Positions 27,808 to 41,533 of a stretch of DNA of 64,000 bases are shown here, one piece after another. Where the stretch lies: assembly GCF_000263195.1 (NCBI RefSeq), contig NC_018748.1, forward strand, positions 3,348,001-3,412,000. The letters are read 5' to 3'. The notes beneath the pieces were generated by a model. The model was not told where the DNA came from and ran no database searches. It saw only the letters and a list, made by a program, of their open reading frames with translations. Numbering within the stretch: position 1 is the stretch's first letter; every line of letters starts with the position of its first letter. The stretch comes from Emticicia oligotrophica DSM 17448. Its GTDB lineage: Bacteria > Bacteroidota > Bacteroidia > Cytophagales > Spirosomataceae. A program made the position numbers and the translations under genes.

Positions 27808-28458
27808 ATGTTTGTAACAACCATGACTTTAGACTTAAAATTCTTGCGAGAAAAATTCGGGACAATGTTTGAGGTGGGCCTCTTACAGGAAATTATAGAA
27901 TATGGTAATTATATGAAGGTTGAAGAAGGATACATACTGATGCGTCCTGGAGGATTTATTCGTTCGGTACCGATTTTGTTGAGTGGTTCAGTAAAAATAG
28001 TAAGAGCCGATGCAGATGGTAAGGAAGCATTATTGTATTATTTAGGTGAAAAAGATTCATGTGCCATGTCGCTGACCTGTTGTTTAAATAGCCGTCAAAG
28101 TGAAATTAGTGCCATCGCCGATTCTCCAACTGAATTTATTTCTTTACCAGTACAGAAAATAGAAGAATGGATGTCGAAATATTCTTCTTGGAAAGAATTT
28201 GTGTTTATGACCTACCAAAGAAGATTCGATGATTTGCTCACGGCCATAGACCAAATTGCTTTCATGAAATTAGATGAGCGATTGATAAATTTATTGAAAA
28301 AGAAATCGGCCCAATGTAATTGTAATACATTTAACGTAACGCACGAAGAATTGGCCAATGAATTATCAACCTCAAGAGAGGTAATCTCAAGATTATTGAA
28401 ACAACTCGAACGCCTTGATAAAGTCAAATTATCCAGAAATAAAGTTGAGTTGGTATAA
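27808..28458 (+). CDS. Crp/Fnr-family transcription regulator of the sulfur cluster (predicted)
   Basis: 216 residues (ATG 27823 is an alternative). About 15-125 is the cyclic-nucleotide-binding-like beta-roll; about 128-150 the dimer helix; about 155-216 a winged helix-turn-helix. The recognition helix STSREVISRLLKQLE has Arg190, Glu191 and Arg195 with the spacing of the CRP residues that read a TGTGA half-site, agreeing with the TGTAAC/GTGAC half-sites of five boxes downstream. Cysteines 85, 91, 92, 170 and 172 could sense sulfur species or bind a cofactor (inference). The first box lies 73 nt after its stop. Confidence 0.85.
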   Translation: MFVTTMTLDLKFLREKFGTMFEVGLLQEIIEYGNYMKVEEGYILMRPGGFIRSVPILLSGSVKIVRADADGKEALLYYLGEKDSCAMSLTCCLNSRQSEISAIADSPTEFISLPVQKIEEWMSKYSSWKEFVFMTYQRRFDDLLTAIDQIAFMKLDERLINLLKKKSAQCNCNTFNVTHEELANELSTSREVISRLLKQLERLDKVKLSRNKVELV

Positions 28459-28530
28459 TTTATCGAAATGATGCTACAAATCATATCTTTTTTCTAAAAC
28501 ATAGTCCAGAATCATATTTTTTCTGGGCTA

Positions 28531-28575
28531 TGTAACAATTATCACGGAATACCCCTTCACTAAAAAATACTTTTG
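28531..28575 (+). promoter_or_regulatory. Crp/Fnr box 1 and promoter (tauE, cstB-like)
   Basis: TGTAACAATTATCACGG at 28531-28547, -7 element TACTTTTG at 28568-28575. Box start to -7 start is 37 bp. No TTG at the normal -33 position, which suits an activator-dependent promoter. Confidence 0.75.
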
Positions 28576-28602
28576 TAGTGTAAATAACAAAATCACTACA
28601 AA

Positions 28603-29409
28603 ATGAACTCTACAGAAATATTTGGTTTTTCGGCATCAATCCTAATCGGTGTTAGCTTAGGTCTTATAGGCGGCGGCGGGAGTATTCTCACATTGCCCGT
28701 ATTAGTGTATCTGCTTCATATAAGTCCAGTTACCTCAACCGCTTATTCTTTGTTTGTCGTTGGGACTACATCGTTGGTTGGGTCGACGAGTTTTATGCGT
28801 AAATCGCTTGTAAATTATCGTGCGGCTGTTGTGTTTGCCATTCCTTCATTTACAACTGTTTTTTTAACTCGCAAATATTTAGTACCTGCCATTCCCGACC
28901 CAATTATTAGTTTTTCGGGTGTTGAAGTATCAAAAAATGTAGGTATTATGGTGTTTTTTGCTCTGATTATGTTAGCGGCATCTTATTCAATGATTAAAAG
29001 CAAAAAGGAAGAAAGTGCGAATGAAACGGGAGAACTGAAATTCAATTATCTAATGATTGCCCTTGAGGGTGGTGTTGTTGGAATTCTAACAGGAATCGTT
29101 GGAGCAGGTGGTGGATTTTTGATTATTCCTGCTTTGGTTTTATTTGCTCGTTTGCCCATGAAAATGGCGGTTGGAACTTCATTATTAATCATTGCTGCTA
29201 AATCTCTCATTGGCTTTGTTGGTGATTTATCGAATATGGAAGTAGATTGGAAATTTCTTATCTCATTTACTGCCCTTTCGGTTGTCGGCATCTTTTTAGG
29301 CTCGTATTTATCGAAATTCGTTCCGGGCGAAAAACTTAAAAAATCATTCGGTTGGTTTGTGCTCGTCATGGGTATTTATATCATATCAAAAGAAATCTTT
29401 TTCAAATAA
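28603..29409 (+). CDS. TauE/SafE-family sulfite/organosulfonate exporter
   Basis: 268 residues with about eight membrane helices in two related halves, each opening with a glycine-rich loop: LIGVSLGLIGGGGSIL (N half) and VVGILTGIVGAGGGFLI (C half), the TauE signature. Members export sulfite, sulfoacetate or related anions, or act in sulfur-compound uptake. It is first in a two-gene unit with the persulfide dioxygenase, whose product is sulfite, so sulfite export is a good inference. Confidence 0.9.
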   Translation: MNSTEIFGFSASILIGVSLGLIGGGGSILTLPVLVYLLHISPVTSTAYSLFVVGTTSLVGSTSFMRKSLVNYRAAVVFAIPSFTTVFLTRKYLVPAIPDPIISFSGVEVSKNVGIMVFFALIMLAASYSMIKSKKEESANETGELKFNYLMIALEGGVVGILTGIVGAGGGFLIIPALVLFARLPMKMAVGTSLLIIAAKSLIGFVGDLSNMEVDWKFLISFTALSVVGIFLGSYLSKFVPGEKLKKSFGWFVLVMGIYIISKEIFFK

Positions 29410-29444
29410 TAAATCTTCGAATCAAAATTAAACTATAAGAAATC

Positions 29445-30860
29445 ATGTTTTTTCAACACGTATATGACAAATCATTGGCTCAAGCGAGCTACTTTATTGG
29501 CTGCCAAAAAGCTGGTGTTGCCCTTGTAATCGACCCGAAAAGAGATATTGATACCTATCTCGAAATTGCCAAGCAAAATAATATGAAAATTACCCACGTG
29601 ACAGAAACGCACATTCATGCTGATTTTCTTTCTGGGGCAAGAGAATTGGCTGCGGTTACGGGTGCTCAACTCTACTTATCAGATGAAGGTGGTGAAGGAT
29701 GGGAATATGAGTTTGAACACGTTGGGCTAAAAGATGGCAGTATTTTTTATGTTGGAAACTTAAAACTAGAAGTTTTACATACACCGGGGCATACGCCAGA
29801 AAGTATTAGCTTCTTACTTACTGACCAACCTGCAAGCCCAGAGCCAGTGATGTTGTTTACAGGCGATTTTGTTTTTGTAGGAGATGTTGGTCGCCCTGAT
29901 TTATTAGAAAAAGCCGCAGGTGTGGCGGGTACAAAAGAAGCAGGTGCTTTAGAAATGTATAAATCAATTCAGCGTTTCAATGCCTTACCCGATTTCTTGC
30001 AAGTTTGGCCAGGACACGGAGCTGGTTCGGCATGTGGAAAAGCATTAGGTGCAGTGCCAAGTTCGACAGTTGGATATGAGAAAATCAGAAACTGGGCATT
30101 CCAGTATGAAGATAATAAAGATGGATTTGTACAGTACCTACTAGCTGACCAACCTGAACCACCAAAGTATTTTGCCATGATGAAGCACTTGAATAAAGTT
30201 GCTCGTCCGCTACTGACAGAAGTACCACAACAGAAAAAGTTAAGTGCAGAAGAAGTAAAGGATGCAATGGCAAAAGGTGTAAAACTCATAGATACACGTA
30301 ATAAGATTGATTTTGCTGCTGGCTACGTACCTGGTAGTATCAATATTCAAGGAAACAATTCTTTTGCTACTTGGATGGGTTGGTTTGTGAACTACGAAGA
30401 GCAATTTATGTTGGTAGCTTCGGAGTCCCAAATTGAAGACCTTACCCGTAAATTAATGCGTATAGGTTTAGATAACGTTTTGGGGTATATTACAGATGTT
30501 GGCAATTTAGGGCTTGAACTTCAAAAAAGTGATGTCATCGGAATGGATGAGTTTAAGACCTATTTAGACCGTGAAGATACCCAAATAATTGATTTGAGAG
30601 GTGTTGCCGAATACAATACAGGCCACATACAAGGTGCAGAAAATGTATTTATTGGTACAATTCTACAAAATCTTGATAAAATAAGTAAAGACAAACAAAT
30701 TGTTATTCATTGTCAAGGTGGAGATAGAGCCGCAATCGGTCATTCAGTGCTTGAAAGAGCGGGCTTTAAAAATATCAAAAATTATTCTGCAGGTATGAAT
30801 GAATGGGTGAATAAAGGTAATCCAGTAGGAACTTCAGTTGCTGAAGCCATAGCTCAGTAA
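29445..30860 (+). CDS. CstB-like persulfide dioxygenase with pseudo-rhodanese and rhodanese domains
   Basis: 471 residues. Residues 1-240 are a metallo-beta-lactamase-fold persulfide dioxygenase: THIHAD (His56, His58, Asp60), HTPGHTPES (His116) and TGDFVFVGDVGRP (Asp141) give the ETHE1-type iron ligands. About 260-355 is a rhodanese domain without a catalytic Cys (FMLVASESQ). About 365-465 is an active rhodanese with Cys423 in VIHCQGGDRA. This three-domain order is that of Staphylococcus CstB, which oxidises low-molecular-weight persulfides to sulfite and thiosulfate. It lies 36 nt after tauE under Crp/Fnr box 1. Confidence 0.9.
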   Translation: MFFQHVYDKSLAQASYFIGCQKAGVALVIDPKRDIDTYLEIAKQNNMKITHVTETHIHADFLSGARELAAVTGAQLYLSDEGGEGWEYEFEHVGLKDGSIFYVGNLKLEVLHTPGHTPESISFLLTDQPASPEPVMLFTGDFVFVGDVGRPDLLEKAAGVAGTKEAGALEMYKSIQRFNALPDFLQVWPGHGAGSACGKALGAVPSSTVGYEKIRNWAFQYEDNKDGFVQYLLADQPEPPKYFAMMKHLNKVARPLLTEVPQQKKLSAEEVKDAMAKGVKLIDTRNKIDFAAGYVPGSINIQGNNSFATWMGWFVNYEEQFMLVASESQIEDLTRKLMRIGLDNVLGYITDVGNLGLELQKSDVIGMDEFKTYLDREDTQIIDLRGVAEYNTGHIQGAENVFIGTILQNLDKISKDKQIVIHCQGGDRAAIGHSVLERAGFKNIKNYSAGMNEWVNKGNPVGTSVAEAIAQ

Positions 30861-30878
30861 ATTGTTTGAGGTTGTGGT

Positions 30879-30928
30879 GCGGAACTTCAGATGCTTAGTT
30901 CCGCAACTTCATTCGTGGAGTTTCCACG
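30879..30928. repeat. two small hairpins after the CstB-like gene
   Basis: GCGGAACT/AGTTCCGC (30879-30904) and CGTGGA/TCCACG (30914-30928). Neither has a long T run; they may help to end or stabilise the transcript. Confidence 0.4.
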
Positions 30929-31014
30929 TTTAATTAGTGTAAAAATAATTATTGCTTTAGCAAAACTTTGAATTTCAAATTTGTAAAGCAGTATTTTAGA
31001 GGTTTAGAGAATGT

Positions 31015-31044
31015 AAAAACACGAATTGATGATTCGTGTTTTTT
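31015..31044 (+). terminator. intrinsic terminator between boxes 1 and 2
   Basis: AAAAACACGAAT / ATTCGTGTTTTT, 12-bp perfect stem, 5-nt loop, T tail. It separates the tauE transcript from the rhodanese unit. Confidence 0.85.
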
Positions 31045-31096
31045 ATGATTGAGGTAATGAAAGCATAGATTGAAAAAAGTGAAAATATTTTCGGTA

Positions 31097-31141
31097 TGTA
31101 ACATTTGTCACTTTTTAGGCTTCTCAAATCGTCGATATTTG
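31097..31141 (+). promoter_or_regulatory. Crp/Fnr box 2 and promoter (rhodanese-thioredoxin unit)
   Basis: TGTAACATTTGTCACTT at 31097-31113, -7-like GATATTTG at 31134-31141. Spacing is again 37 bp. The -7 has G in place of the first T, as at box 5. Confidence 0.72.
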
Positions 31142-31173
31142 TTGTATAAATATTAAAAATACAATAAACGCAC

Positions 31174-31500
31174 ATGAACATGTTTGAATTTTTGAAACCT
31201 AAAAAAACGTATGAAAATGTATCTGCAACAGATTTTAGAAAGTTGATTTCTGAAAATCCAGATGCGATAATTCTTGATGTACGTACTCCTGCTGAATTTA
31301 GTCAAGGAGCGATTAAAGGGGCAGTAAATATGGATATTATGGAGGCTGATTTTGGTACTAAAGTAGCGAAACTCGATAAATCAAAAACATATTTAGTTTA
31401 CTGTAGAAGTGGAAATAGAAGCGGAAGTGCTTGCAGTTCAATGCGTACTGAAGGCTTTGATAAAGTTTATAATCTTGCAGGTGGTTTAATGAACTACTAA
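31174..31500 (+). CDS. single-domain rhodanese
   Basis: 108 residues, one rhodanese domain without an export signal, so cytoplasmic. The catalytic Cys77 is in VYCRSGNRSGSAC; ILDVRTPAEFSQGAIKGAVNMD is the usual early motif. It transfers sulfane sulfur between thiosulfate or persulfides and thiol acceptors. First gene of a four-gene unit with a DUF2892 protein, thioredoxin and methyltransferase; thioredoxin is a natural acceptor for the sulfur. Confidence 0.9.
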   Translation: MNMFEFLKPKKTYENVSATDFRKLISENPDAIILDVRTPAEFSQGAIKGAVNMDIMEADFGTKVAKLDKSKTYLVYCRSGNRSGSACSSMRTEGFDKVYNLAGGLMNY

Positions 31501-31515
31501 AATCTGATACAAACC

Positions 31516-31752
31516 ATGAAAAATTTAATAGTTGATTGGGATTTTCTAAGGTTACTCCGACTAGGTATAGGTTTATGGCTTGGTTTTCTGGCAATCGCTG
31601 AAAGTCAGTTGATTGTGGGAGTAATGGCAGCTTTATTTTTGCTCCAAGCCATTTTTAATATTGGTTGTGCAGGCGGTGCTTGCAATACGCCATGGATTCG
31701 TGCAAATCATAAGCATTTAATTAAAGAAGAAGTTTTTGAAGAAATTAAATAA
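31516..31752 (+). CDS. DUF2892-like small membrane protein
   Basis: 78 residues with two helices (about 10-28 and 32-50) and a cysteine pair in [12 protein letters not shown] at the second helix. DUF2892 proteins, like the YgaP membrane domain, are often fused to or encoded beside rhodaneses, as here (15 nt downstream). The cysteines may pass sulfur at the membrane (inference). Confidence 0.75.
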
Positions 31753-31762
31753 TAAGTCCAAC

Positions 31763-32080
31763 ATGAATACGACAGAAAAAAAAGAAAGTTTTGCAGATAT
31801 CATTGGTGGTGATACACCAGTTTTAGTCGATTTTTTTGCTGAATGGTGCGGGCCATGTAAAATGATGTCTCCAATTTTACAAGACTTTGCTGCCGAAATG
31901 GGCAACCGAGTGAGAGTTCTCAAAGTAGATGTGGATAGAAATCCTGCACTTGCACAAAACTTCAGAATACAGGGCGTTCCGACTTTAATGCTTTTCAAAA
32001 ATGGCGAAGCTAAATGGCGTCAATCAGGAGTATTACAGAAAAAACAATTAGAACAAATAATTAATCAATTTGCTGGCTGA
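31763..32080 (+). CDS. thioredoxin
   Basis: 105 residues from ATG 31763 (the frame opens 27 nt earlier inside the upstream gene). Active site WCGPC in [15 protein letters not shown], cis-Pro in [13 protein letters not shown]. Cytoplasmic. In this unit it probably reduces rhodanese-bound sulfur. Overlaps the methyltransferase start by one base (TGATG). Confidence 0.93.
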
Positions 32081-32679
32081 TGAAAGAATTTTGGGATGCT
32101 CGATATAACGAAGAAACTTTTGCTTATGGAATAAACCCCAATGAGTTTTTTAAGGAAAATATAGATAAACTCCCAGTTGGAAATATTCTCCTTCCTGCAG
32201 AAGGTGAAGGTCGAAATGCCGTTTATGCCGCCCGAAAAGGTTGGCAGGTAACGGCATTTGATTTTAGTGTTTCAGCAAAGATAAAGGCCATGAAATTGGC
32301 AGAAGAGCATGGTGTAAGTATTGATTTTAAAGTACTTGATGCCGCTAATTTCCAACCCGAGGCAAATATAAAATATGATGTGGTGGGACTTTTTTATGCC
32401 CATATTCCAGCGGAATTACGTTTGGAATTTCACCAAAAAATAGTTCAAATAGTTAAAAATTCGGGTTATGTTATATTCGAAGCATTCCATAAAAACCAAT
32501 TAAATTATCTCTCGGGGGGGCCAAAAGATGCTAAAATGTTATTTTCTAAAGAAGAATTAGAACAAGAGTTTGCGGGTTTAAAATTTCTTTCAATTGAAGA
32601 TAAAGTAATCAACTTAGATGAAGGTTTATACCATCAAGGCCAAGGATATGTACTCCGAATGATTGCTACTAAGGCCTAA
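32080..32679 (+). CDS. class I SAM-dependent methyltransferase (TehB/thiopurine-type)
   Basis: 199 residues. WDARYNEETFAYGINPNEFF at the N-terminus is typical of the TehB / thiopurine-methyltransferase-like group; the SAM loop is ILLPAEGEGRNAVYAARKGWQVTAFDFS (split here as LLPAEGEGRNAV and VTAFDFS). Relatives methylate chalcogen compounds such as tellurite, or thiols. In a sulfur operon, methylation of sulfide or a thiol is a reasonable inference. Translation is coupled to thioredoxin. Confidence 0.82.
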   Translation: MKEFWDARYNEETFAYGINPNEFFKENIDKLPVGNILLPAEGEGRNAVYAARKGWQVTAFDFSVSAKIKAMKLAEEHGVSIDFKVLDAANFQPEANIKYDVVGLFYAHIPAELRLEFHQKIVQIVKNSGYVIFEAFHKNQLNYLSGGPKDAKMLFSKEELEQEFAGLKFLSIEDKVINLDEGLYHQGQGYVLRMIATKA

Positions 32680-32740
32680 TGTAATTTTATTGTTTTTTAA
32701 ACTTAAATCGTCCCGAATTTAGAAAGAAATTTCACTCCTC

Positions 32741-32763
32741 ATCAGTTAAAACTGCCGGCAATG
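32741..32763. repeat. dispersed palindromic repeat, family A, copy 2
   Basis: ATCAGTTAAAACTGCCGGCAATG resembles 39283-39309 (CAGTTAAAACT core, CGGCAAT end). The rest of 32680-33126 is AT-rich and shows no gene I can support. Confidence 0.5.
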
Positions 32764-33126
32764 AATCAAATTTTATTATCATTCAAATAAATTCTTCATC
32801 GCATAATTATTTTTATTAGCTTTTAGTATAACCGTTTTCCTTTGGTGAAATGAACAAGTAGTTATTTGTCATTTTTTTGTTGAATGTATTCTACATGTTT
32901 GTCAATTTCTTTTTATTTTACAGATTACTTATTTTTAGAGCTAATTTTGGAATTACCCTATGTATTTGGTGTCACAATATCTTTGGCCTAAACTTTTCCT
33001 CAATAATCATCTATTAATCAAATAAGGCTTGCCCATTTCCGTATTTAATAAATCTGAAACAAGTTTGACAAAATGATCATATTCAAATCTACCCTTTAAA
33101 AGAAAAATCCAATTTTATCAATAATA

Positions 33127-33171
33127 TGTAACATTTGTTACACATATAGCCAATTGAACTAAATAACTTTG
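33127..33171 (+). promoter_or_regulatory. Crp/Fnr box 3 and promoter (tsdA-dsrE-soxB unit)
   Basis: TGTAACATTTGTTACAC at 33127-33143 is a perfect palindrome over TGTAAC and GTTACA. The -7 TAACTTTG is at 33164-33171, box-to--7 distance 37 bp, 29 nt before the ATG. Confidence 0.8.
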
Positions 33172-33199
33172 CTAGAACCGTAAAACACTTCGTATTAAA

Positions 33200-34264
33200 A
33201 TGTCTAAAATCGAACCTGAGAAAGTCACCGCAAGGCTTACTAAAATTTTGTATTTGTTGAGTATCTTGATGCCACTGGCTCTTATTTTTATTCTGAGCAT
33301 TGTTTACATTCAACTTTTTGGTTTTCCAGCCACTAAAACGAAAGAGGCCGAGGCTTCTCAAAAAGAGTTTGTAAAAATTGATAGTAATTTTGTTCAACTC
33401 TGGACGGCCCCATCGGAATGGCGTATGTCAAAACTCGACCCCGAGGAGCAAAAACTCATCAAGTATGGGAAAGAGCTCATTGCTCACACTGCTGATTATC
33501 TTGGCCCTAAAGGAAGCGTAAAACCTATTTCAAATGGTATGAATTGTCAAAATTGTCATTTGAATGCTGGTACACAGCCTTGGGGAAATAATTACTTTGC
33601 TGTTCAGGCCAATTATCCTAAATTCAGAGAGCGTTCAGGAACAGTTGAAAATCAAATCAAACGTGTAAATGATTGTTTTGAAAGGAGTCTCAACGGTAAG
33701 GCTCTTGATTCTACAAGTCGAGAGATGCGTGCAATTTTAGCTTATATCAAGTGGATAGGTTCTGATGTGCCTAAAAAGATAACCCCAAAAGGAGCGGGTA
33801 TTTTCAAACTTAAAGGTCTAAAAAGAGCAACAGACCCAGAAAAAGGTCGTATCGTTTACGAGCAAAAATGCCAAAGTTGCCATCAAGCAAATGGTGAAGG
33901 TATTTTAGCCGAAAATGGCAAAAATTATACCTATCCACCACTTTGGGGGCAACACAGCTATAACAACGGAGCAGGTTTATACAGAATTTCGAATTTTGCG
34001 GGCTATGTCAAATATAATATGCCTCTTGGTACAACCTACGAACGCCCACAACTGAGCGATGAAGAGGCTTGGGATGTTGCAGCTTTTGTAAATACGATGC
34101 CTCGACCTACCAAAGACCTTAGTAAAGATTGGCCAAGTATTGCAGGAAAACCTTTCGACCATCCTTTTGGCCCCTATACCGACCCTTTCTCGGAGCAACA
34201 ACACAAATATGGCCCATATAAGCCTATTAAAGAGTGGAAAGAAGCTCACAAATCAAAAAAATAA
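33200..34264 (+). CDS. TsdA-like dihaem cytochrome c (thiosulfate dehydrogenase family)
   Basis: 354 residues. One membrane anchor (about 16-40), then two cytochrome c domains with haem motifs C116-x-x-C-H120 (NCQNCH) and C224-x-x-C-H228 (KCQSCH). Cys159 in RVNDCFERSLNGK lies 39 residues after His120, as does the unusual Cys haem ligand of TsdA; NYPKFRERSGT and NMPLGTTY (Met ligand) also fit. TsdA joins two thiosulfates to tetrathionate, or the reverse. Periplasmic. First gene of a unit with dsrE-like and soxB-like genes. Confidence 0.85.
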   Translation: MSKIEPEKVTARLTKILYLLSILMPLALIFILSIVYIQLFGFPATKTKEAEASQKEFVKIDSNFVQLWTAPSEWRMSKLDPEEQKLIKYGKELIAHTADYLGPKGSVKPISNGMNCQNCHLNAGTQPWGNNYFAVQANYPKFRERSGTVENQIKRVNDCFERSLNGKALDSTSREMRAILAYIKWIGSDVPKKITPKGAGIFKLKGLKRATDPEKGRIVYEQKCQSCHQANGEGILAENGKNYTYPPLWGQHSYNNGAGLYRISNFAGYVKYNMPLGTTYERPQLSDEEAWDVAAFVNTMPRPTKDLSKDWPSIAGKPFDHPFGPYTDPFSEQQHKYGPYKPIKEWKEAHKSKK

Positions 34265-34287
34265 TCAAACCCCTAATTTATTTTACA

Positions 34288-34710
34288 ATGAAAATTTTTA
34301 AGTTCTTCGCACTTGTACTATTGGTTTCTTTGGCATCACAGTCTTATGCACAGAAAAAAACAAAAGAACACCGCATCGTTTTTCATCTTTCAACGCCTGA
34401 TACATTGGCTTATCGTGCACTAACTAAACAACTTACCAATGTATTGGCTGTATGGCCTACCGCAAAAATAGAAGTAGTAGTGCATAACAAAGGCTTGGGT
34501 ATGGTTTTGAAAGGGAAAAGTCAATTTGAGCCAGAAATTCAAAGCTTAGTTAATCAAGGTATTTCGTTTGCTGTTTGTGAAAACTCACTAAAACAACAAA
34601 AACTTACCAAAGAACAAATCTTTTCGCAAGCATCGTTTGTACCATCGGGTTTAGTCGAAATTGTTGAAAAACAAGAGGCGGGTTGGTCATATATCAAAGC
34701 AGGATTCTAA
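34288..34710 (+). CDS. periplasmic DsrE-family protein
   Basis: 140 residues from ATG 34288, with signal peptide (1-22, ending SYAQ). The alpha/beta DsrE-like domain contains IVFHLSTPDTLAYRAL, TAKIEVVVHNKGL and Cys97 in GISFAVCENSL, the position of the sulfur-carrying cysteine in this family. DsrE-like proteins pass sulfane sulfur. Export to the periplasm is uncommon among characterised relatives but fits a partner for TsdA and SoxB. Confidence 0.82.
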   Translation: MKIFKFFALVLLVSLASQSYAQKKTKEHRIVFHLSTPDTLAYRALTKQLTNVLAVWPTAKIEVVVHNKGLGMVLKGKSQFEPEIQSLVNQGISFAVCENSLKQQKLTKEQIFSQASFVPSGLVEIVEKQEAGWSYIKAGF

Positions 34711-34723
34711 AACACTTAATCTT

Positions 34724-36400
34724 ATGCAATCAAGAAGAAAATTTTTGCAATCGGGGCTTCTAGCTACTGCGGCGGCTGGAACTCCCAATGCTTTGATAGC
34801 TCACTCAAACGAAGAAAGTTTTACGAACAATATTGAAGGTTCATCAAAAAATGGCACGATAACTATTTTACAAACAACCGATGTGCACTGTCAGTTACAT
34901 GCTCATGATGAACTTTTTTGGGAAAATAACCAACTTACATTCCGAAAAGCAGGTGGATACGCCCATTTGGCTACTGCTCTCGATGTGATGAAAAAGGAGA
35001 ATCCTGAAAATACCATTACACTCGATACTGGCGATATGTTTCAAGGCAGTATGCTTTCGGTAAAAACGAATGGGCAAGCATTTGTCCCCTTACTAAATGC
35101 TTTGAATTATGACCTTTATTTACCCGGAAATTGGGAAGTGGTTTATTATAAGAAAAATATGCAAAAACTCTTGGGCGGTTTATTAGGTCCAAAAGTTTGT
35201 GCAAATATGTATCATGATTTGGGAGATGGTAAGCGGGGAGATTTGATTTTTCAACCTTACCAAATTATGCATCGAATGGGGGTGAAGATTGGTTTTTTAG
35301 GCTATACTGACCCACTAGTACCTTTAAGACAATCTCCGCTTTATAGTAAAGGAATTATCTATACCAAACCAGAAGAAAACCTTAAACAATATGTAGATAT
35401 TCTGAAAGAACAAGAGCAATGTGATTTTATAATTATTCTTTCGCATCTTGGACTTTCGCAGCAAATTGCCTTGGGAAATCACCCTGATTGCCGCGGAGTT
35501 GACTATATTTTTGGAGCTGACACGCACGAACGCGTACGTAAACCCATTCAGGCAGAATATACCAAAATTGTAGAGCCGGGTGCTTTTGGCTCTTTTATTG
35601 GTCGTTTAGATTTAAAAGTTGAAAATGGGAAAATTACGGGTGAAAAATATCAGTTAATAGAAGTTAGCCCACAAAAATACCCTGCAAAGAAGGAAATTGT
35701 TGAGATTATCGACCAAATAGAAAAACCTTTTAAAGAGGAAATGAACAAAGTATTAGGTTATAGTACATTGCCACTTTACCGAAATTTTGTGGTTGAAAAT
35801 ACCATCGACACAATGATTGTTGATGCTTTGAAGTGGAAAGTAAACGCTGATGTTGTTTTATCTAACGGCTTCCGTTTTTGTCCGCCACGAACTGCTGGCA
35901 AAGAGGGTAAAGTGGCAATTACTGAAAGTTATTTACATGATATGTTGCCCGTAGATTCGCCAATTCGAACGGCAAAAGCTACAGGGCAACAGATTGCTGA
36001 TTGGCTGGAAAAAGAACTTCAAAATGTATTTGCACAAGATGCTTCGAAACGTTTTGGTGGTTGGTTAATTCGCTTCAAAGGAATGCAGGTAGAATTTAAA
36101 GCCTTTGAAAGAGTTGGGCATCGTGTACAAAAAGTAACGATTGCAGGTGAACCACTTGATTTGACTAAAACTTATGTTTTATGTGCTTGCGAACGTGACG
36201 GAGACCCCGAAGATATGATTTGTCGAATGAGAGGAGTGAAAGAAGGGACTAATACTTCATTTACTTTACATTCGATTATGAAAGAGTATCTTCAGAAATT
36301 CTCACCGATAACGCCAACACTTCGGCATGATGCTAAAATTTTAGATGCCCCACAGGAGTTGCTAAGCCAAGTTTCTGGTGTTGATTATCAATTTGCCTAA
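34724..36400 (+). CDS. SoxB-like metallophosphoesterase-fold hydrolase (Tat-exported)
   Basis: 558 residues from ATG 34724, with a Tat signal (SRRKFLQSG). The calcineurin-like domain has LQTTDVHCQLH (Asp53, His55), DTGDMFQGS, LPGNWEVVYY, ILSHLG and GADTHE, giving the dimetal site; the C-terminal 5'-nucleotidase domain follows (about 370-540). The Q-G-S and P-G-N-W-E segments are closer to SoxB thiosulfohydrolases than to plain nucleotidases. SoxB hydrolyses sulfate from SoxY-bound thiosulfate, but soxYZ and soxAX are absent here. Confidence 0.8.
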   Translation: MQSRRKFLQSGLLATAAAGTPNALIAHSNEESFTNNIEGSSKNGTITILQTTDVHCQLHAHDELFWENNQLTFRKAGGYAHLATALDVMKKENPENTITLDTGDMFQGSMLSVKTNGQAFVPLLNALNYDLYLPGNWEVVYYKKNMQKLLGGLLGPKVCANMYHDLGDGKRGDLIFQPYQIMHRMGVKIGFLGYTDPLVPLRQSPLYSKGIIYTKPEENLKQYVDILKEQEQCDFIIILSHLGLSQQIALGNHPDCRGVDYIFGADTHERVRKPIQAEYTKIVEPGAFGSFIGRLDLKVENGKITGEKYQLIEVSPQKYPAKKEIVEIIDQIEKPFKEEMNKVLGYSTLPLYRNFVVENTIDTMIVDALKWKVNADVVLSNGFRFCPPRTAGKEGKVAITESYLHDMLPVDSPIRTAKATGQQIADWLEKELQNVFAQDASKRFGGWLIRFKGMQVEFKAFERVGHRVQKVTIAGEPLDLTKTYVLCACERDGDPEDMICRMRGVKEGTNTSFTLHSIMKEYLQKFSPITPTLRHDAKILDAPQELLSQVSGVDYQFA

Positions 36401-36425
36401 TTACTATCCTAAATCAAATATATTT

Positions 36426-36469
36426 AGCTGCATTAGATAGGTCATTCTCCTATATAATGCGGCTTTTTT
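36426..36469 (+). terminator. intrinsic terminator of the tsdA-soxB unit
   Basis: AGCTGCATTAGATAGG pairs with CCTATATAATGCGGCT (two mismatches), then a T run at 36464-36469. Confidence 0.85.
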
Positions 36470-36548
36470 GTTGTTTATTGAGTCTAAAAACCTTTCTTCA
36501 ATGCCTACAAATAATTAATTCATAAAAAATTTGATACTTCTTCACCAA

Positions 36549-36593
36549 TGTAACATTTGTCACGGATTAGCCTTCATTCAAGCGGTAGCTTTG
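36549..36593 (+). promoter_or_regulatory. Crp/Fnr box 4 and promoter (porin-yeeE unit)
   Basis: TGTAACATTTGTCACGG at 36549-36565, -7 TAGCTTTG at 36586-36593. Spacing 37 bp; ATG 19 nt after the -7 element. Confidence 0.8.
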
Positions 36594-36611
36594 TATCATA
36601 AAGTTTAAATT

Positions 36612-38015
36612 ATGAGGAAAGTCAGACTATATGCAGTGTTATTGTCATTGTTTTTATTCGATTCTGTAACAAATGCTCAGGGTATTCATACACATCATGA
36701 AACAGAAAAAGATACAAATACTTTAAGTCATTTTTTTGAGAGAGGCCGATTTTATGGGCATGCACGTTCATATTTTTCTTCCACCACAAACAAAGGAAAT
36801 TTAAGTGATTATTACGCTTGGGGCATGGGGGCTGGTATTGGCTATGAAACCCCTAAGTTTTTGAAATATTTTCAAGTGGGTTTAAGTGGCTTTTTTATGT
36901 TTAACCTAAAATCTTCTGACTTACAAAAAGCAGACCCCACAACTAATCAAGTGAATAGATATGAAGTAGGTTTATTTGATATCGAACGCCCAAATGACCA
37001 TAAAGATTTAGACCGCCTTGAAGAACTTTTCGTGAAACTTCATCTCTCAAAGAAAACAAAAATTACCGTTGGTAGGCAAATACCTGAAACTCCCATGATA
37101 AATCCACAAGATGGACGAATGCGGCCAACTTTGATAGAAGCAGCGGTTTTAGATGTGAATGAAGCGAAAAATCTGAATCTGCATGCAGAGTATATTTGGC
37201 GTTTTTCGCCACGCTCAACTGTTAGGTGGTTTGACGTTGGAGAAAGTATTGGGGTTTATCCAGTAGGTGTAGGAATTGATGGAAAGCCATCGCAATACAA
37301 AAATAATATTGAATCGGGTGGGGTGGGTGTTTTAGGAATAACCTATAAAAAGAATCAATGGAATCTTCAAGTATGGGATACCTACATTGATAATGTTCTG
37401 AATACTGCTATGCTGAAAACAGAATGGAAGTCGAGTACATCTGCCGGGAAAAACTGGTTTTTAGGTGGACAGTTTTTTTACCAAAATGCGGTCGGAAATG
37501 GTGGAAATGATAACCCAACAAAAGCTTATATAGCTGCCGAGAGTGCCTCAAAGATTTATTCTGCTCGTATTGGTCAACAAGCTAATAAATTCGATTGGTT
37601 TCTGAATGGTACCCGAATTACTGCCCAAGGTCGATATTTATTCCCGAGAGAGTGGGGGCGTGAGCCCTTCTATACCTTCATGCCTCGTGAACGTAATGAG
37701 GGATTTGGTGATGTAAAAACCGTAACGATAAATACATTTTTCAAACCTCAAAAGAACATTAAAATCGAGCTTAGTGGAGGCTATTTTCAGTTACCAGATG
37801 TGAAAAATTATACGCTAAATAAATATGGAATGCCTTCTTATTCACAAGTAAATTTAGGAATTACCTACCAATTCGAGCATTTTTTGAAGGGTTTAAATGC
37901 ACTTCTTTTGGTCGTTCGTAAAGATGAAGTTGGTCAAACTTACCAAAATGACCGATACATTATTAACAAAGTAAATATGACGCACTTAAATTTTATAATC
38001 AATTATCACTACTAA
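36612..38015 (+). CDS. OprD-like outer-membrane porin
   Basis: 467 residues with signal peptide (1-22, ending TNAQ). Alternating hydrophobic strands throughout, GRFYGHARSYFSSTTN near the start, LDRLEELFVKLHLSKKTKITVGRQIPETPMINPQDGRM (in segments, the OprD-type eyelet region) and a terminal strand MTHLNFIINYHY ending in an aromatic residue. Probably an 18-strand anion porin. It opens the unit that continues with two YeeE half-transporters, so thiosulfate entry through the outer membrane is a sensible inference. Confidence 0.75.
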   Translation: MRKVRLYAVLLSLFLFDSVTNAQGIHTHHETEKDTNTLSHFFERGRFYGHARSYFSSTTNKGNLSDYYAWGMGAGIGYETPKFLKYFQVGLSGFFMFNLKSSDLQKADPTTNQVNRYEVGLFDIERPNDHKDLDRLEELFVKLHLSKKTKITVGRQIPETPMINPQDGRMRPTLIEAAVLDVNEAKNLNLHAEYIWRFSPRSTVRWFDVGESIGVYPVGVGIDGKPSQYKNNIESGGVGVLGITYKKNQWNLQVWDTYIDNVLNTAMLKTEWKSSTSAGKNWFLGGQFFYQNAVGNGGNDNPTKAYIAAESASKIYSARIGQQANKFDWFLNGTRITAQGRYLFPREWGREPFYTFMPRERNEGFGDVKTVTINTFFKPQKNIKIELSGGYFQLPDVKNYTLNKYGMPSYSQVNLGITYQFEHFLKGLNALLLVVRKDEVGQTYQNDRYIINKVNMTHLNFIINYHY

Positions 38016-38023
38016 TACAAAAC

Positions 38024-38599
38024 ATGAATCAGATTTTTGAATTTATTCTCCAACCTTGGCCGTGGTATGTGGCTGGCCCTTTGATTGGTCTAACGGTTCC
38101 GACCTTATTATTGATTGGCAATAAATCTTTCGGTATTTCCTCATCTCTTCGTCACGTTTGTGCGGCTTGTATTCCAGCCAATATTCCATTCTTTAAGTAT
38201 GATTGGAAAAAAGAAATCTGGAATTTAGTATTTGTTGCTGGGGTATTTTTGGGTGGATTGATTGCCACGCATTTCCTCGAAAATCCAAATGATTTTGTAC
38301 TTTCAGAAGCCACGATTGCTGATTTAAAAGCCCTTGGAATCAAGGATTTTTCTGGACTGATGCCTGCCGATTTGTTTTCGATTGAAACGCTTTTTTCAGT
38401 AAAAGGACTGCTGTTTTTTGTTTTTGGTGGATTTTTAGTTGGTTTCGGTACTCGCTATGCGGGGGGCTGTACTTCTGGCCATGCCATCATGGGGCTTTCT
38501 AATTTACAATTACCTTCTTTGTTAGCTACTTGTTGTTTCATGGTAGGAGGTTTTACGATGACGCACCTGATTATGCCCTATATTTTTAAATTATTTTAA
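38024..38599 (+). CDS. YeeE/YedE (TsuA-like) sulfur transporter, first half
   Basis: 191 residues, about five membrane helices. Cysteines lie in [11 protein letters not shown] and [11 protein letters not shown]; the second is the YeeE/YedE signature, where cysteines relay thiosulfate through the channel. Full-length TsuA is about twice this size, so this and the next gene encode the two halves (a PmpA/PmpB-type split). Starts 9 nt after the porin. Confidence 0.85.
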
Positions 38600-38620
38600 T
38601 ACTTCGAAAAACTAAAAGAA

Positions 38621-39115
38621 ATGAAAGATTTTCAAAACGCACAAGTTATTGCAGAACCGTTTGTTTGTGAAGCTCCCAATGATATGAAAAAGGCTGAATC
38701 GTGGAGCGATAATATTAAATATTTAATTGTGGGAATTATGTTTGGAATCGTATTCGTAAAAGCAGAAATTATTTCTTGGTTTAGAATTCAAGAGATGTTT
38801 CGGTTGCAGAGTTTCCACATGTATGGCGTAATTGGAAGTGCGGTGATTGTAGGCATGATTTCAGTATTTTTAATTAAAAAATTCAATATCAAGACCATTG
38901 CTGGTGAAACAGTAGAATTTCACCCAAAGAAGTTTCAAAAAGGACAAATCTATGGTGGTTTGATTTTTGGATTAGGTTGGGCAATCACTGGAGCGTGCCC
39001 AGGTCCATTATTTGCCCAAATCGGTAGTGGATTTGTAGTTGTATTAGTCACTCTTTTGAGTGCTGTTGCAGGTACTTGGGCATACGGATATTTCAAAGAT
39101 AGATTACCTAACTAA
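38621..39115 (+). CDS. YeeE/YedE sulfur transporter, second half
   Basis: 164 residues, about four membrane helices. Contains GWAITGACPGPLFAQIGSG, the second cysteine-bearing repeat of the YeeE/YedE family. Together with the preceding gene it should form one thiosulfate or sulfur-compound channel in the inner membrane. Last gene of the porin unit, followed by a strong terminator. Confidence 0.85.
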   Translation: MKDFQNAQVIAEPFVCEAPNDMKKAESWSDNIKYLIVGIMFGIVFVKAEIISWFRIQEMFRLQSFHMYGVIGSAVIVGMISVFLIKKFNIKTIAGETVEFHPKKFQKGQIYGGLIFGLGWAITGACPGPLFAQIGSGFVVVLVTLLSAVAGTWAYGYFKDRLPN

Positions 39116-39219
39116 GTATTTTCTGAGAAGAAATAATCCCAAAATAGAGTCACCCCGACTTTTGTAAGAAATTCTCATTAGGGAACTCCATCTATTTAAA
39201 CGGATAAGTATTTTGGCAT

Positions 39220-39275
39220 AAACAAATTTGACTTTACTCTAAACTTATAGTTTAACTAAAGTCAAATTTGTTTTT
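39220..39275 (+). terminator. strong terminator of the porin-yeeE unit
   Basis: 17-bp perfect stem AAACAAATTTGACTTTA (39220-39236) / TAAAGTCAAATTTGTTT (39257-39273), with an inner AAAC/GTTT stem in the 20-nt loop and a T tail. Confidence 0.85.
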
Positions 39276-39282
39276 ATAATGG

Positions 39283-39309
39283 ATTCCGTCAGTTAAAACT
39301 AACGGCAAT
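39283..39309. repeat. dispersed palindromic repeat, family A, copy 3
   Basis: ATTCCGTCAGTTAAAACT then AACGGCAAT; see 9276-9299 and 32741-32763. Confidence 0.5.
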
Positions 39310-39345
39310 AAAAGATGCTTTTTCTTAATTAATTTTACAAAATTG

Positions 39346-39475
39346 AAATGAAATATATTTTATATTTCATTTAGGCTGAATGCATAAAATAATATCCTGC
39401 GATTTGGTTAAAAGATGTGCCATTAGGCACTAAATATCGGTAGAAAGGAATTTCGTGTGCCGTAGGTACGAAACA
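39346..39475. repeat. structured intergenic stretch
   Basis: A perfect 12-bp hairpin AAATGAAATATA / TATATTTCATTT (39346-39372), then two GTGCC...GGnAC mini-hairpins (near 39417-39430 and 39457-39469) flanking CGGTAGAAAGGAATTTCG. GTGCCGTAGGTACGAAAC-like segments recall short repeats in other Bacteroidota genomes (memory, unchecked). No gene lies in 39116-39596. Confidence 0.35.
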
Positions 39476-39596
39476 GTCAAAAGGATTGCATATTATTACT
39501 ACATTCTAACGAGAGCCAATAGCTAATTTTAAGCCCTTAAAGGGGCAAGTTTAACCCAAAATGATGTGCGTTTAACATGAATTTCATTAGCCTTTC

Positions 39597-40184
39597 ATGA
39601 ATATTGATTATATTGGCTATATGAAAGAACTCTTCGACTACTTCGATAAATTTTTAAAACTATCTGCCGAAACTCAGAATATTTTGGCAGGTGTTTGTAG
39701 CACCGTTTTTCTTAAAAAAAATGAGCTATTGCAGCCCATCGGGCATACCTGTAAGACAATCTACTTCGTGCAATCGGGCATTGCTAGGATATTTTATTAC
39801 AAAGATGGTGTTGATATTACCGAAAGCTTTGCTTTTGCAGGAAATATCATTGTGCGGGTTGAAAGCCTTTTTACCGGAAAACCTTCTAAAAAAGCAATTC
39901 AAGTATTAGAAGATTCTGAAATCATTGCCATTAATGCAACCAAACTCTTTAAGCTCTACGATGAATATCCATCAATCGAACGCCTTTTTCGATTGATTTT
40001 TGAAAATGGTTATGTAGAAACTGTTAATCGAATTGAAAGTATTCAATTTCATACGGCAGAAGAACGCTATTTAAGTCTTTTAAAACAAACTAATATTGTT
40101 CAGAAAATTCCCCTCAAACACATTGCTTCTTATTTAGGCATCACGCAAGTATCATTAAGCCGAATTCGTGCTTCAATTAAATGA
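39597..40184 (+). CDS. Crp/Fnr-family regulator (short-HTH type)
   Basis: 195 residues (ATG 39618 is an alternative start). Cyclic-nucleotide-binding-like domain at about 10-125 (TIYFVQSGIARIFYYKDGVDITESFAFAG in segments), then a compact helix-turn-helix at about 165-195 (LKHIASYLGITQVSLSRIR). The recognition helix lacks the CRP Arg-Glu pair, so it probably reads a different site from the 27808 regulator. It lies between the porin-yeeE unit and the MFS gene; box 5 starts 4 nt after its stop. Confidence 0.85.
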   Translation: MNIDYIGYMKELFDYFDKFLKLSAETQNILAGVCSTVFLKKNELLQPIGHTCKTIYFVQSGIARIFYYKDGVDITESFAFAGNIIVRVESLFTGKPSKKAIQVLEDSEIIAINATKLFKLYDEYPSIERLFRLIFENGYVETVNRIESIQFHTAEERYLSLLKQTNIVQKIPLKHIASYLGITQVSLSRIRASIK

Positions 40185-40187
40185 TTA

Positions 40188-40232
40188 TTTAACATTTGTT
40201 AAAGGAAAAGTTATCGCACTCCATGAACTTTG
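40188..40232 (+). promoter_or_regulatory. Crp/Fnr box 5 and promoter (MFS gene)
   Basis: TTTAACATTTGTTAAA at 40188-40203, -7-like GAACTTTG at 40225-40232, spacing again 37 bp. Weaker than the other boxes (outer TG/CA lost) and 84 nt from the ATG, so the least certain member. Confidence 0.5.
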
Positions 40233-40315: not shown

Positions 40316-41533
40316 ATGGAAAAGGTAAAGTTAGGTATGAAGGAAAACTGGCAACAGTTTACTTTATTGGTTATTATCAATGCATTTGTTGGTGGAATGA
40401 TAGGGCTTGAGCGTTCGATTTTTCCACTTTTAGCTGAAAAAGAATTTAGCGTAGCTTCCCAAACGGCTGTTTTATCGTTTATTGTTGCTTTTGGTTTGAC
40501 TAAGGCGGTTTGTAATTATTTTACTGGCCGATTAGCCAATAGAATTGGTCGAAAAAACTTGCTTGTTATTGGCTGGGTTTTCGCATTGCCCATTCCTTAT
40601 ATACTCATTTATGCCGATGCTTGGGCGTGGATTGTGCTTGCAAATATACTATTAGGAATCAATCAAGGGCTAACTTGGAGCATGGCGGTAGTCATGAAGA
40701 TTGACCTTGTGGGGCCACAAAAACGAGGCTTAGCCGTTGGTATTAATGAGTTCGCTGGGTATTTATCAGTCGGTTTGGTTGCTTTCCTAACTGGGTATAT
40801 TGCTCAAACTTATGGTGTCAGACCTTATCCATTTTATATGGGTATTGTTTTTTCTTTATTGGGGTTATTTCTTTCAGCTCTTTTTGTAAAAGATACACAT
40901 TTACACGTGAGTAGTGAAAGTATTAAGAGCCAAATACCAGCTTTAAATAATGTTTTTTTAGATACATCTTTTCTGAATAAATCTCTTAGTGGAATCACAC
41001 AGGCTGGTTTAGTAAATAATCTTAATGATGGAATGGTTTGGGGACTTCTACCAGTTGTTTTAAGCATCAAGCATTTCACCATTACTGAAATTGGCATCTT
41101 ATCGGCGGTTTACCCAACTACTTGGGGAATTAGCCAACTTTTTACTGGAAAGCTTTCAGATATTTATTCAAAGAAAAAACTACTATTTATTGGGATGTTA
41201 GTTCAAGCAATAGCGATTATTGCACTCTTAAAGGCAGAAACTTTTACGCATTTTTCATTAATTGGGCTGAGTTTAGGTTTAGGAACGGCACTCGTGTATC
41301 CGACATTTATTAATGCCATTGCCGATTTTACTTCACCCAAACAAAGGGCAGAAAGTTTAGGCGTTTTTAGATTTTGGCGTGATGCTGGCTATGCAATAGG
41401 TGCGTTATTTACAGGAATAATCGCTGATATTTTAGGGCTTGATTACTCAATATTTTTAATTGGATTTATCACGCTATTATCGGCTATCATAGTTTGGATG
41501 AGAGTAGAAGATAAAACATTAGATGTATCATGA
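40316..41533 (+). CDS. MFS transporter
   Basis: 405 residues with twelve predicted membrane helices. The loop GRLANRIGRKNLLVIG between helices 2 and 3 and LSDIYSKKKLLFIG in the second half are the MFS motif A repeats. Substrate cannot be read from the sequence. A degenerate Crp/Fnr box with matching spacing upstream suggests it belongs to the sulfur regulon, perhaps for anion or metabolite export. ATG 40337 is an alternative start. Confidence 0.88.
   Translation: MEKVKLGMKENWQQFTLLVIINAFVGGMIGLERSIFPLLAEKEFSVASQTAVLSFIVAFGLTKAVCNYFTGRLANRIGRKNLLVIGWVFALPIPYILIYADAWAWIVLANILLGINQGLTWSMAVVMKIDLVGPQKRGLAVGINEFAGYLSVGLVAFLTGYIAQTYGVRPYPFYMGIVFSLLGLFLSALFVKDTHLHVSSESIKSQIPALNNVFLDTSFLNKSLSGITQAGLVNNLNDGMVWGLLPVVLSIKHFTITEIGILSAVYPTTWGISQLFTGKLSDIYSKKKLLFIGMLVQAIAIIALLKAETFTHFSLIGLSLGLGTALVYPTFINAIADFTSPKQRAESLGVFRFWRDAGYAIGALFTGIIADILGLDYSIFLIGFITLLSAIIVWMRVEDKTLDVS

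Follow-up and report, generated by a model that had tools for sequence, protein, structure and literature searches.

A sulfur gene cluster with repeated Crp/Fnr-type boxes

The subject of this work is a sulfur gene cluster of Emticicia oligotrophica DSM 17448 (genome of 5.22 Mb in 6 contigs), located in a stretch of 64,000 nucleotides (contig NC_018748.1, positions 3,348,001 to 3,412,000) that is hereafter called the window. The cluster begins with the gene for a Crp/Fnr-type regulator, Crp1 (the 27808 protein), and continues with four gene units, each preceded by a 16-bp palindromic box. An earlier note on this DNA had proposed that five such boxes, starting at 28531, 31097, 33127, 36549 and 40188, define a sulfur regulon at class II activator spacing, with Crp1 as its likely regulator. 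All five boxes were found as quoted, and in every case a -7 element begins 37 bp past the start of the box (TACTTTTG, GATATTTG, TAACTTTG, TAGCTTTG and GAACTTTG for boxes 1 to 5; general form NANNTTTG). Conservation, a gene-blind scan of the phylum and co-occurrence with the regulator strongly favour the proposal for boxes 1 to 4, which quite probably mark a conserved regulon with a Crp1-type regulator as class II activator; box 5 falls outside this set. The regulator and the four units comprise the following features.

27808..28458, + strand: Crp1, Crp/Fnr regulator of 216 amino acids with recognition helix SREVISR and Cys85, Cys91 and Cys92 (Pfam; 70-sequence alignment)
28531..28546, + strand: box 1, before tauE-cstB; box and spacing kept in G009, G002 and G003
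28568..28575, + strand: -7 element TACTTTTG of box 1
28603..29409, + strand: tauE, TauE/SafE exporter (PF01925, 6e-43)
29445..30860, + strand: cstB-like MBL-rhodanese gene, predicted persulfide dioxygenase-sulfurtransferase (Pfam; 3tp9, 4e-124; 3r2u, 7e-116)
31097..31112, + strand: box 2, before the rhodanese unit; kept in G009 and G002
31134..31141, + strand: -7 element GATATTTG of box 2
31174..31500, + strand: single-domain rhodanese (PF00581, 2e-20)
31516..31752, + strand: 78-amino-acid protein, no Pfam family; homologs at the same place in G009 and G002
31763..32080, + strand: thioredoxin (PF00085, 1e-29)
32080..32679, + strand: methyltransferase, TPMT/TehB-like (PF13649, 1e-8)
33127..33142, + strand: box 3, a perfect palindrome, before tsdA; kept in G009, G002 and G003
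33164..33171, + strand: -7 element TAACTTTG of box 3
33200..34264, + strand: tsdA, thiosulfate dehydrogenase homolog (4wqc, 4e-43 over residues 110-304; PF21342)
34288..34710, + strand: DsrE-family protein (PF02635, 1e-9)
34724..36400, + strand: SoxB-like metallophosphoesterase (TIGR04486, 272 bits)
36549..36564, + strand: box 4, before oprD; kept in G009, G002 and G003
36586..36593, + strand: -7 element TAGCTTTG of box 4
36612..38015, + strand: OprD-family porin (PF03573, 4e-10)
38024..38599, + strand: YeeE/YedE half, Sulf_transp (PF04143, 7e-16; short match to TsuA structures)
38621..39115, + strand: YeeE/YedE second half, DUF6691 (PF04143, PF20398)

The gene names given in the earlier note mostly hold when judged by Pfam, NCBIfam and structure matches. 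The 29445 product is predicted to be of the CstB type, as it combines MBL and rhodanese domains, 3tp9 and 3r2u both match almost the entire protein, and the match to 3r2u, which we take to be a CstB structure, spans residues 1-451; the 33200 product is a putative TsdA, with homology to 4wqc across both cytochrome domains. The exception is soxB: the score of 272 bits against TIGR04486 falls below the curated cut-off of 550 for the SoxB thiosulfohydrolase, and the gene is therefore called SoxB-like. The 78-amino-acid protein may be DUF2892-like. General family scans found no hcp among the window genes scanned. Together the four units read as a system for thiosulfate import and oxidation, persulfide oxidation and sulfur transfer.

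The boxes are confined to the cluster in the source genome

Allowing up to two mismatches, the sequence TGTAACAWTTRTYAC matched the window 7 times against 2.06 expected, and none of 100 shuffles reached 7. Five of the seven matches are the four TGTAAC boxes plus box 3 on the opposite strand, and one is box 5. Exact copies of TGTAACAWTTRTYAC number 4 in the whole genome, every one at the sulfur cluster. With one mismatch there are 5 more places: box 3 on the opposite strand, three within open frames of 443-595 codons, and one behind a third Crp/Fnr-like gene. When the spacing was added to the box, the genome held 4 exact places (all in the cluster), 2 with two mismatches (box 5 and 1669516, where the box lies inside a 443-codon frame) and 12 with three. 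Those with three mismatches are near chance, as a reversed-pattern control gave 9 places against 18 for box plus spacing at up to three mismatches. The earlier note had held that its proposal would fail if the boxes were equally common before unrelated genes; in the source genome exact copies stand only at the cluster. Because the search pattern was derived from the boxes themselves, the weight rests on the absence of further copies and on the comparative tests below.

Box and spacing are conserved in the genus and family

The cluster is present in three congeners (G009, G002 and G003), in which Crp1, tauE, cstB, tsdA, dsrE, soxB, oprD and yeeE are 74-91% identical to the window genes; for mfs and crp2, described below, and for the rhodanese and the 78-amino-acid protein (each found in two congeners) identity is 54-67%. 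The box with its 37-bp spacing precedes tauE, tsdA and oprD in all three congeners, and the rhodanese in two of three, the third having no rhodanese there. All three also carry an extra box with the same spacing before cstB, where the window has none. In G003 a third Crp1 relative (33% identity; L035, 12413-13027) is inserted within the cluster, with its own box at the 3' end and its own -7 element.

The survey was extended to 73 family loci of up to 20 kb each, the window's own and 72 with Crp1 homologs. The palindrome TGTAACAWWTGTTACA was found at up to three mismatches at 253 sites on both strands, and in 76 of these TTTG begins 41 bases past the box start. At the 39 other offsets from 20 to 59 the same sites gave a mean of 2.1 and a maximum of 6. 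Both counts take in both strands, so perfect palindromes are counted twice, and 5 of the 76 are the window's own sites. Behind the 76 sites recur relatives of tauE, cstB, rhodanese, tsdA, oprD and yeeE.

A gene-blind scan finds the pattern mostly at sulfur genes

A composite pattern (TGTAACAWWTGTYAC, the spacing, then ANNTTTG; at most one mismatch) was used to scan 395 genomes drawn across the phylum, with gene information unused. It was present in 59 of the 395 genomes. Shortening the gap by 3 bp left 4 places in 4 genomes, and the reversed composite pattern gave 3 hits, the latter by a hand count of the control columns. Outside the source genome there were 95 places, 94 of them distinct when sites identical over 60 bases are counted once; 5 of the 95 lie in G160, which belongs to the same family.

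The gene behind each site was defined as the longest frame with a start in the next 400 bases, so that short first genes may escape; among the assigned first genes, seven start more than 100 bases past the -7 element. By blastp, 54 of the 94 sites precede homologs of cluster genes: cstB (31), rhodanese (7), tauE (6), thioredoxin (3), methyltransferase (2), tsdA (2), and one each of oprD, yeeE and a Crp1 relative. Pfam was applied to 20 of the 40 unassigned genes. Five were Pyr_redox_2 flavoproteins, SQR-like by our reading; the others were one each of a SulP permease, DoxX, OsmC, a redoxin, an outer-membrane efflux protein, DUF302, prismane (Hcp), a multiheme cytochrome, a fatty-acid hydroxylase, DUF2490, DUF983, DUF2492, a Tll0287-like protein, a methyltransferase and one without a family. 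Given this tally and the Pfam results, the genes behind the phylum sites are mostly, though not exclusively, sulfur genes.

A TolC-like outer-membrane efflux protein stands behind several phylum sites, with no obvious link to sulfur; Pfam assigned OEP for L159, and at L169, L189, L203, L207 and L209 the call was made from N-termini alone. At L138 an equally spaced site lies ahead of an Hcp (prismane) gene, next to which a distinct Crp/Fnr-like protein is encoded; no Crp1-like gene was found at E <= 1e-30 in this genome (G570). Boxes of a similar kind may thus serve HcpR-type regulators.

These results bear on whether the boxes could be AT-rich palindromes that happen to align. Loose matches are indeed common, as the 2.06 expected per window at up to two mismatches and the composite control of 9 against 18 places at up to three make plain. 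The wrong-spacing control (4 against 59 genomes), the few reversed hits, the conservation of boxes and spacing in orthologous clusters and the TTTG peak at a single offset in the 73 family loci all speak against such an artefact, to which we assign a negligible probability.

The promoters lack a -33 element and have a probable class II geometry

Promoter form was read from 169 distinct sites, reduced to 127 at 70% identity. Over these non-redundant sites the -7 element consists of T (70%), A (95%), two free bases and TTTG, of which the TTTG was imposed by the selection and the A partly so. The absence of a TTG at the usual -33, originally remarked on for the five boxes, extends to the whole collection: TTG stays at or below 4% at every offset from 9 to 24, which indicates that the -33 element is missing and that the box stands in its place. 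Judged from the position of the -7 element, the box centre would lie near -41, an assignment to class II activator geometry that is sound by geometry.

A single strict spacing is a mark of activator-polymerase contact at class II promoters, and with the -33 element missing the promoter would be weak without help. Both points argue against the boxes being repressor sites that are released by a sulfur signal, as in BigR or CstR systems. In favour of repression, the box covers part of the usual -33 region, a place open to the action of a repressor as well, and several known persulfide regulators repress, according to passages of PMC9774590, PMC12423496 and PMC7315123. On balance we consider repression very improbable.

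Crp1 and the boxes co-occur

A Crp1-like gene (E <= 1e-30) was found in 54 of the 59 site-bearing phylum genomes against 128 of the 395 overall (Fisher 5e-25, relatedness ignored). Within the family, a site was present in 69 of 75 genomes with Crp1 (E <= 1e-55) against 35 of 147 without a close Crp1. In the genus, no site was seen in G006, which has no Crp1-like gene at E <= 1e-20, or in G001, which has only a 33% relative. Distances agree with this association: a Crp1-like gene is found no more than 2 kb from 21 of the 95 phylum sites, a number that rises to 41 at 10 kb and 50 at 30 kb, and in several genomes (e.g. G434, G582 and G329) a site follows directly past the stop codon of the regulator, as in the window. 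The genome lists behind the co-occurrence and distance counts were transcribed by hand. The nearest named relatives of the regulator come from Emticicia and a Cytophagaceae bin.

Several observations weigh against a simple pairing of these boxes with Crp1 and sulfur genes. By blastp, 40 of the 94 phylum sites precede genes unlinked to the cluster, for example efflux, Hcp, FA_hydroxylase and DUF proteins. Five of the 59 site-bearing genomes have no Crp1-like gene (E <= 1e-30), one of them being the Hcp case with its different Crp/Fnr-like protein, so similar boxes can serve other regulators. Conversely, at a stringency that allows one mismatch the scan gave no site in 74 of the 128 phylum genomes that carry a Crp1-like gene; in the family, sites are lacking in 6 of the 75 genomes with Crp1. 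Finally, there are the 35 of 147 family genomes with a site and no close Crp1; part of these are due to chance, because the reversed-pattern control matches in 18 of 222 family genomes (hand count). The Fisher tests, moreover, treat related genomes as independent.

The source genome also encodes a Crp1 paralog, 279140, with 40% identity. It keeps R190, S194 and R195, and both it and its counterparts in G002, G003, G004, G008 and G010 have their own 3'-end box at the same spacing, with rhodanese genes next. The paralog locus (L041, positions 270000-289999 of its own genome) holds the box, two rhodanese genes, OsmC and a rhodanese-thioredoxin protein, and is predicted to be a second sulfur-transfer module. 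With such a protein present, and with 16 cNMP-domain matches in the genome, cross-talk is plausible and the boxes might be read mainly by another Crp/Fnr protein, be it the paralog, the second regulator of the window (Crp2, below) or another of the sixteen. We judge this improbable. Box 1 directly follows the Crp1 gene, whose orthologs in G009, G002 and G003 have remained with the cluster; in the family scan G004, G008 and G010, which have the paralog and no close Crp1, gave no site besides that of the paralog itself; and Crp2 has its own type of box.

Crp1 is a Crp/Fnr protein with an invariant cysteine

Crp1 matches solely Crp/Fnr-type families in Pfam and NCBIfam (cNMP_binding PF00027, 1.5e-9; HTH_Crp_2 PF13545, 1.1e-8), and none of the FisR, ArsR (BigR/SqrR) or CsoR (CstR) types. 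Foldseek likewise returned CRP-type structures, with monomer TM-scores of about 0.5 for most and 0.78 for 4ev0_D. An AlphaFold model (pLDDT 92.7), which served for fold and secondary structure alone, has residues 86-94 helical directly after C85.

The window protein was aligned with 69 of 71 non-redundant relatives (36-100% identity), the two most distant, L044 and L035:12413-13027, being left out. Eleven columns are invariant in the 70 sequences: G60, Y77, C85, W128, R139, F152, R158, R190, S194, R195 and K198. Cys85 is thus conserved in 70 of 70, and in 73 of 73 in a wider set that includes L044 and L035:12413-13027. In an HMMER alignment to CRP it adjoins the cAMP-binding stretch. E72 and R82 of E. 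coli CRP hold cAMP; in Crp1, Glu72 aligns with Ala86 (Ala in 61 of 70, Glu in 0 of 70) and the positions of Arg82, 96-97, are variable, which sets the protein apart from cAMP-responsive CRP. The 4Fe-4S ligands of FNR are N-terminal cysteines plus one central cysteine. The cysteines of Crp1 are at 85, 91, 92, 170 and 172, with none before residue 85, so it does not have the Fe-S arrangement of FNR.

The closest solved relative is 3dv8 (2e-35, also the best Foldseek E-value), a structural-genomics entry for a Crp/Fnr protein of Eubacterium rectale, which presumably represents another phylum; in the printed alignment it keeps cysteines at the places of C85 and C91. The invariance of Cys85, the lack of conservation at the cAMP contacts and the cysteines of 3dv8 make a cysteine-based signal likely for Crp1. 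Thiol chemistry in this fold is plausible, since passages of PMC7315123 describe a persulfidated Acinetobacter Crp and cite the activation of Vfr and PrfA by glutathione.

As to the nature of that signal, we regard persulfide as an evenly balanced proposition. In its favour, no gene stands behind the sites more often than CstB homologs, and known persulfide regulons comprise genes of the same kinds: in passages of PMC7315123 the FisR regulon holds pdo-sqr-tauE and the BigR regulon yeeE-yedE-pdo2. The invariance of Cys85 is only consistent with a persulfide-responsive class. Two points count against going further: Cys91 and Cys92 are not universal (Cys in 62 of 70 and 54 of 70), and cysteine invariance does not name the ligand. 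The same regulon and regulator could answer to thiosulfate or tetrathionate, to general thiol oxidation, to oxygen or nitric oxide, or to a thiol or nucleotide bound by the protein. An invariant Cys85 with a varying C91/C92 pair suits any thiol chemistry, glutathione activates PrfA and Vfr according to passages of PMC7315123, and the genes behind the phylum sites include a multiheme cytochrome and Hcp. Counting the other way are the 31 CstB homologs among the 94 first genes, which point to persulfide, the unconserved cAMP contacts, and the lack of an N-terminal cysteine set like that of FNR. A signal other than persulfide is a serious contender, which we place somewhat on the doubtful side.

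Box 5 belongs to a second, adjacent module

The fifth box lies behind a second Crp/Fnr gene, in a group with the following features.

39597..40184, + strand: Crp2, second Crp/Fnr protein, 195 amino acids, helix TQVSLSR (PF00027, 7e-9; 28 homolog loci)
40188..40203, + strand: box 5, TTTAACATTTGTTAAA, of the Crp2 site type with TTTAAC half-sites
40225..40232, + strand: -7 element GAACTTTG of box 5
40316..41533, + strand: MFS transporter of the Crp2 module (PF07690, 7e-47)

The grouping of box 5 with boxes 1 to 4 in the earlier note did not survive comparison, as its palindrome differs and goes with the 39597 gene. A TTTAACAWWTGTTAAA-type box (up to two mismatches) lies just behind the Crp2 homolog in 22 of 28 loci, with TTTG at +41 in 22 of 22; it occurred in 36 of 2000 random windows from the same loci. 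These 28 loci, drawn from 26 genomes, take in the Crp2 gene of the window itself as well as some copies that are nearly identical. A TGTAAC box (up to two mismatches) was found in 2 of the 28, one being the window's own. In three congeners TTTATC....GATAAA stands upstream of mfs at the place of box 5, and its spacing is that of box 5 in the two congeners scored (L262 and L267). A single regulon of five boxes was rejected on these grounds, the TTTAAC half-sites following Crp2 homologs and the congeners holding TTTATC....GATAAA. The recognition helices, TQVSLSR in Crp2 and SREVISR in Crp1, fit the change from G to T in the half-site. Because the box type goes with Crp2 homologs, Crp2 and the MFS transporter are best read as a module of their own next to the first one; L263 has an MBL-rhodanese gene between Crp2 and MFS.

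The layout of regulator, own box and next gene may be common among Crp/Fnr genes, since further ones in the source genome are followed closely past the stop codon by a palindrome whose distance to a -7 TTTG is the usual one. Among the 16 cNMP-domain loci of the source genome, 4 (L296, L297, L298 and L302) pass a test for a palindrome plus TTTG, against 12 of 3000 random windows taken anywhere in the fetched own-genome loci, not from intergenic DNA alone. The L297 palindrome lies 97 bases on. By eye, two more loci resemble these: L291, which holds the 279140 paralog, and L301, where the TTTG is shifted one base further.

A proposed mechanism

We propose that a Crp1 dimer binds the 16-bp palindrome TGTAACAWWTGTTACA, with boxes 1 to 4 as operators. 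The promoters combine a Bacteroidota -7 element with the lack of a -33 element; the box centre would lie near -41, and from there Crp1 would recruit RNA polymerase in class II fashion; both the activation and the transcription start are inferred. The units switched on would provide export and persulfide oxidation (tauE-cstB), sulfur transfer (rhodanese, small protein, thioredoxin and methyltransferase), thiosulfate oxidation (tsdA, dsrE and the soxB-like gene) and sulfur import (OprD porin and YeeE pair). The signal would most likely be sulfane sulfur, as persulfide or polysulfide, on Cys85 in a pocket equivalent to the cAMP site of CRP, with Cys91 and Cys92 assisting in most relatives.

A wider proposal, which we hold tentatively as falling just short of balanced, is that Crp1 represents a cysteine-based Crp/Fnr subfamily, undescribed in the literature searched, through which much of the Bacteroidota senses sulfane sulfur. 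Persulfidation of Cys85 in the former cAMP pocket would turn the dimer on, and the protein would read TGTAACAWWTGTTACA at promoters organised around this box. Several Bacteroidota Crp/Fnr genes, namely those of Crp1, its paralog and Crp2 together with some further ones in the source genome, would share the order of regulator, box at or just behind the stop codon and next gene, with the 37-bp spacing, and the half-site would vary in step with the recognition helix (TGTAAC for RE..SR, TTTAAC for QV..SR).

Relation to known systems

Crp1 resembles E. coli CRP at class II promoters in fold, domains, an Arg-Glu...Arg recognition helix and, by geometry, a box near -41. The half-site of E. coli CRP is TGTGA, whereas that assigned to Crp1 is TGTAAC; Crp1 further differs in its unconserved cAMP-contact positions, in the Bacteroidota -7 element without -33 and in its predicted sulfur targets. 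Targets of the same kinds (persulfide dioxygenase, SQR, TauE and YeeE/YedE) belong to FisR and BigR of Acinetobacter baumannii and to CstR of Staphylococcus aureus, as passages of PMC7315123 and PMC9774590 describe them. These regulators are of other kinds and use other DNA sites, FisR being a sigma54 activator, BigR of the ArsR type and CstR of the CsoR type. HcpR, the nitrosative-stress Crp/Fnr regulator of Bacteroidota (passages of PMC13370916), belongs to the same superfamily and has different targets, with one same-spacing phylum site (L138) before an Hcp gene.

The gene content recalls Erythrobacter flavus 21-3, in which tsdA, soxB-like and MBL-rhodanese genes also lie side by side. Passages of PMC7608252 describe a TsdA-SoxB-SdoA/B route there, with tetrathionate produced by TsdA, then acted on by SoxB, and sulfur dioxygenases as the following enzymes, and report tsdA and soxB in Bacteroidetes too. 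Unlike that system, the cluster described here adds the porin, the YeeE pair and a Crp/Fnr regulon; the word 'regulator' is absent from the available text of PMC7608252.

The available text of PMC9774590 contains neither 'fnr' nor 'bacteroid', its 'crp' passages coming from the reference list, and that of PMC12423496 contains none of 'fnr', 'bacteroid' and 'crp'. The open-access literature that was searched yielded no description of this system, a silence that is weak evidence of novelty since most subscription papers lie outside that scope. In the papers searched, no transcriptional regulator is described for the handling of sulfide, persulfide and thiosulfate in Bacteroidota, while other phyla use FisR, BigR/SqrR-type proteins and CstR. 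If our proposal is correct, the Crp/Fnr family, best known for sensing cAMP, oxygen and CO, would extend to sulfane sulfur, and a plain sequence rule (the box, 37 bp, then NANNTTTG) could be used to predict targets in Bacteroidota genomes.

Sequences upstream of the regulator gene

A partial box, TGTAACAACCATGAC, at 27813-27827 of the window overlaps the region of the proposed 27808 start codon. Autoregulation of Crp1 through this sequence is not claimed, as inspection by eye found no such box upstream in the three congeners. In G005 a full box lies upstream of the regulator gene itself.

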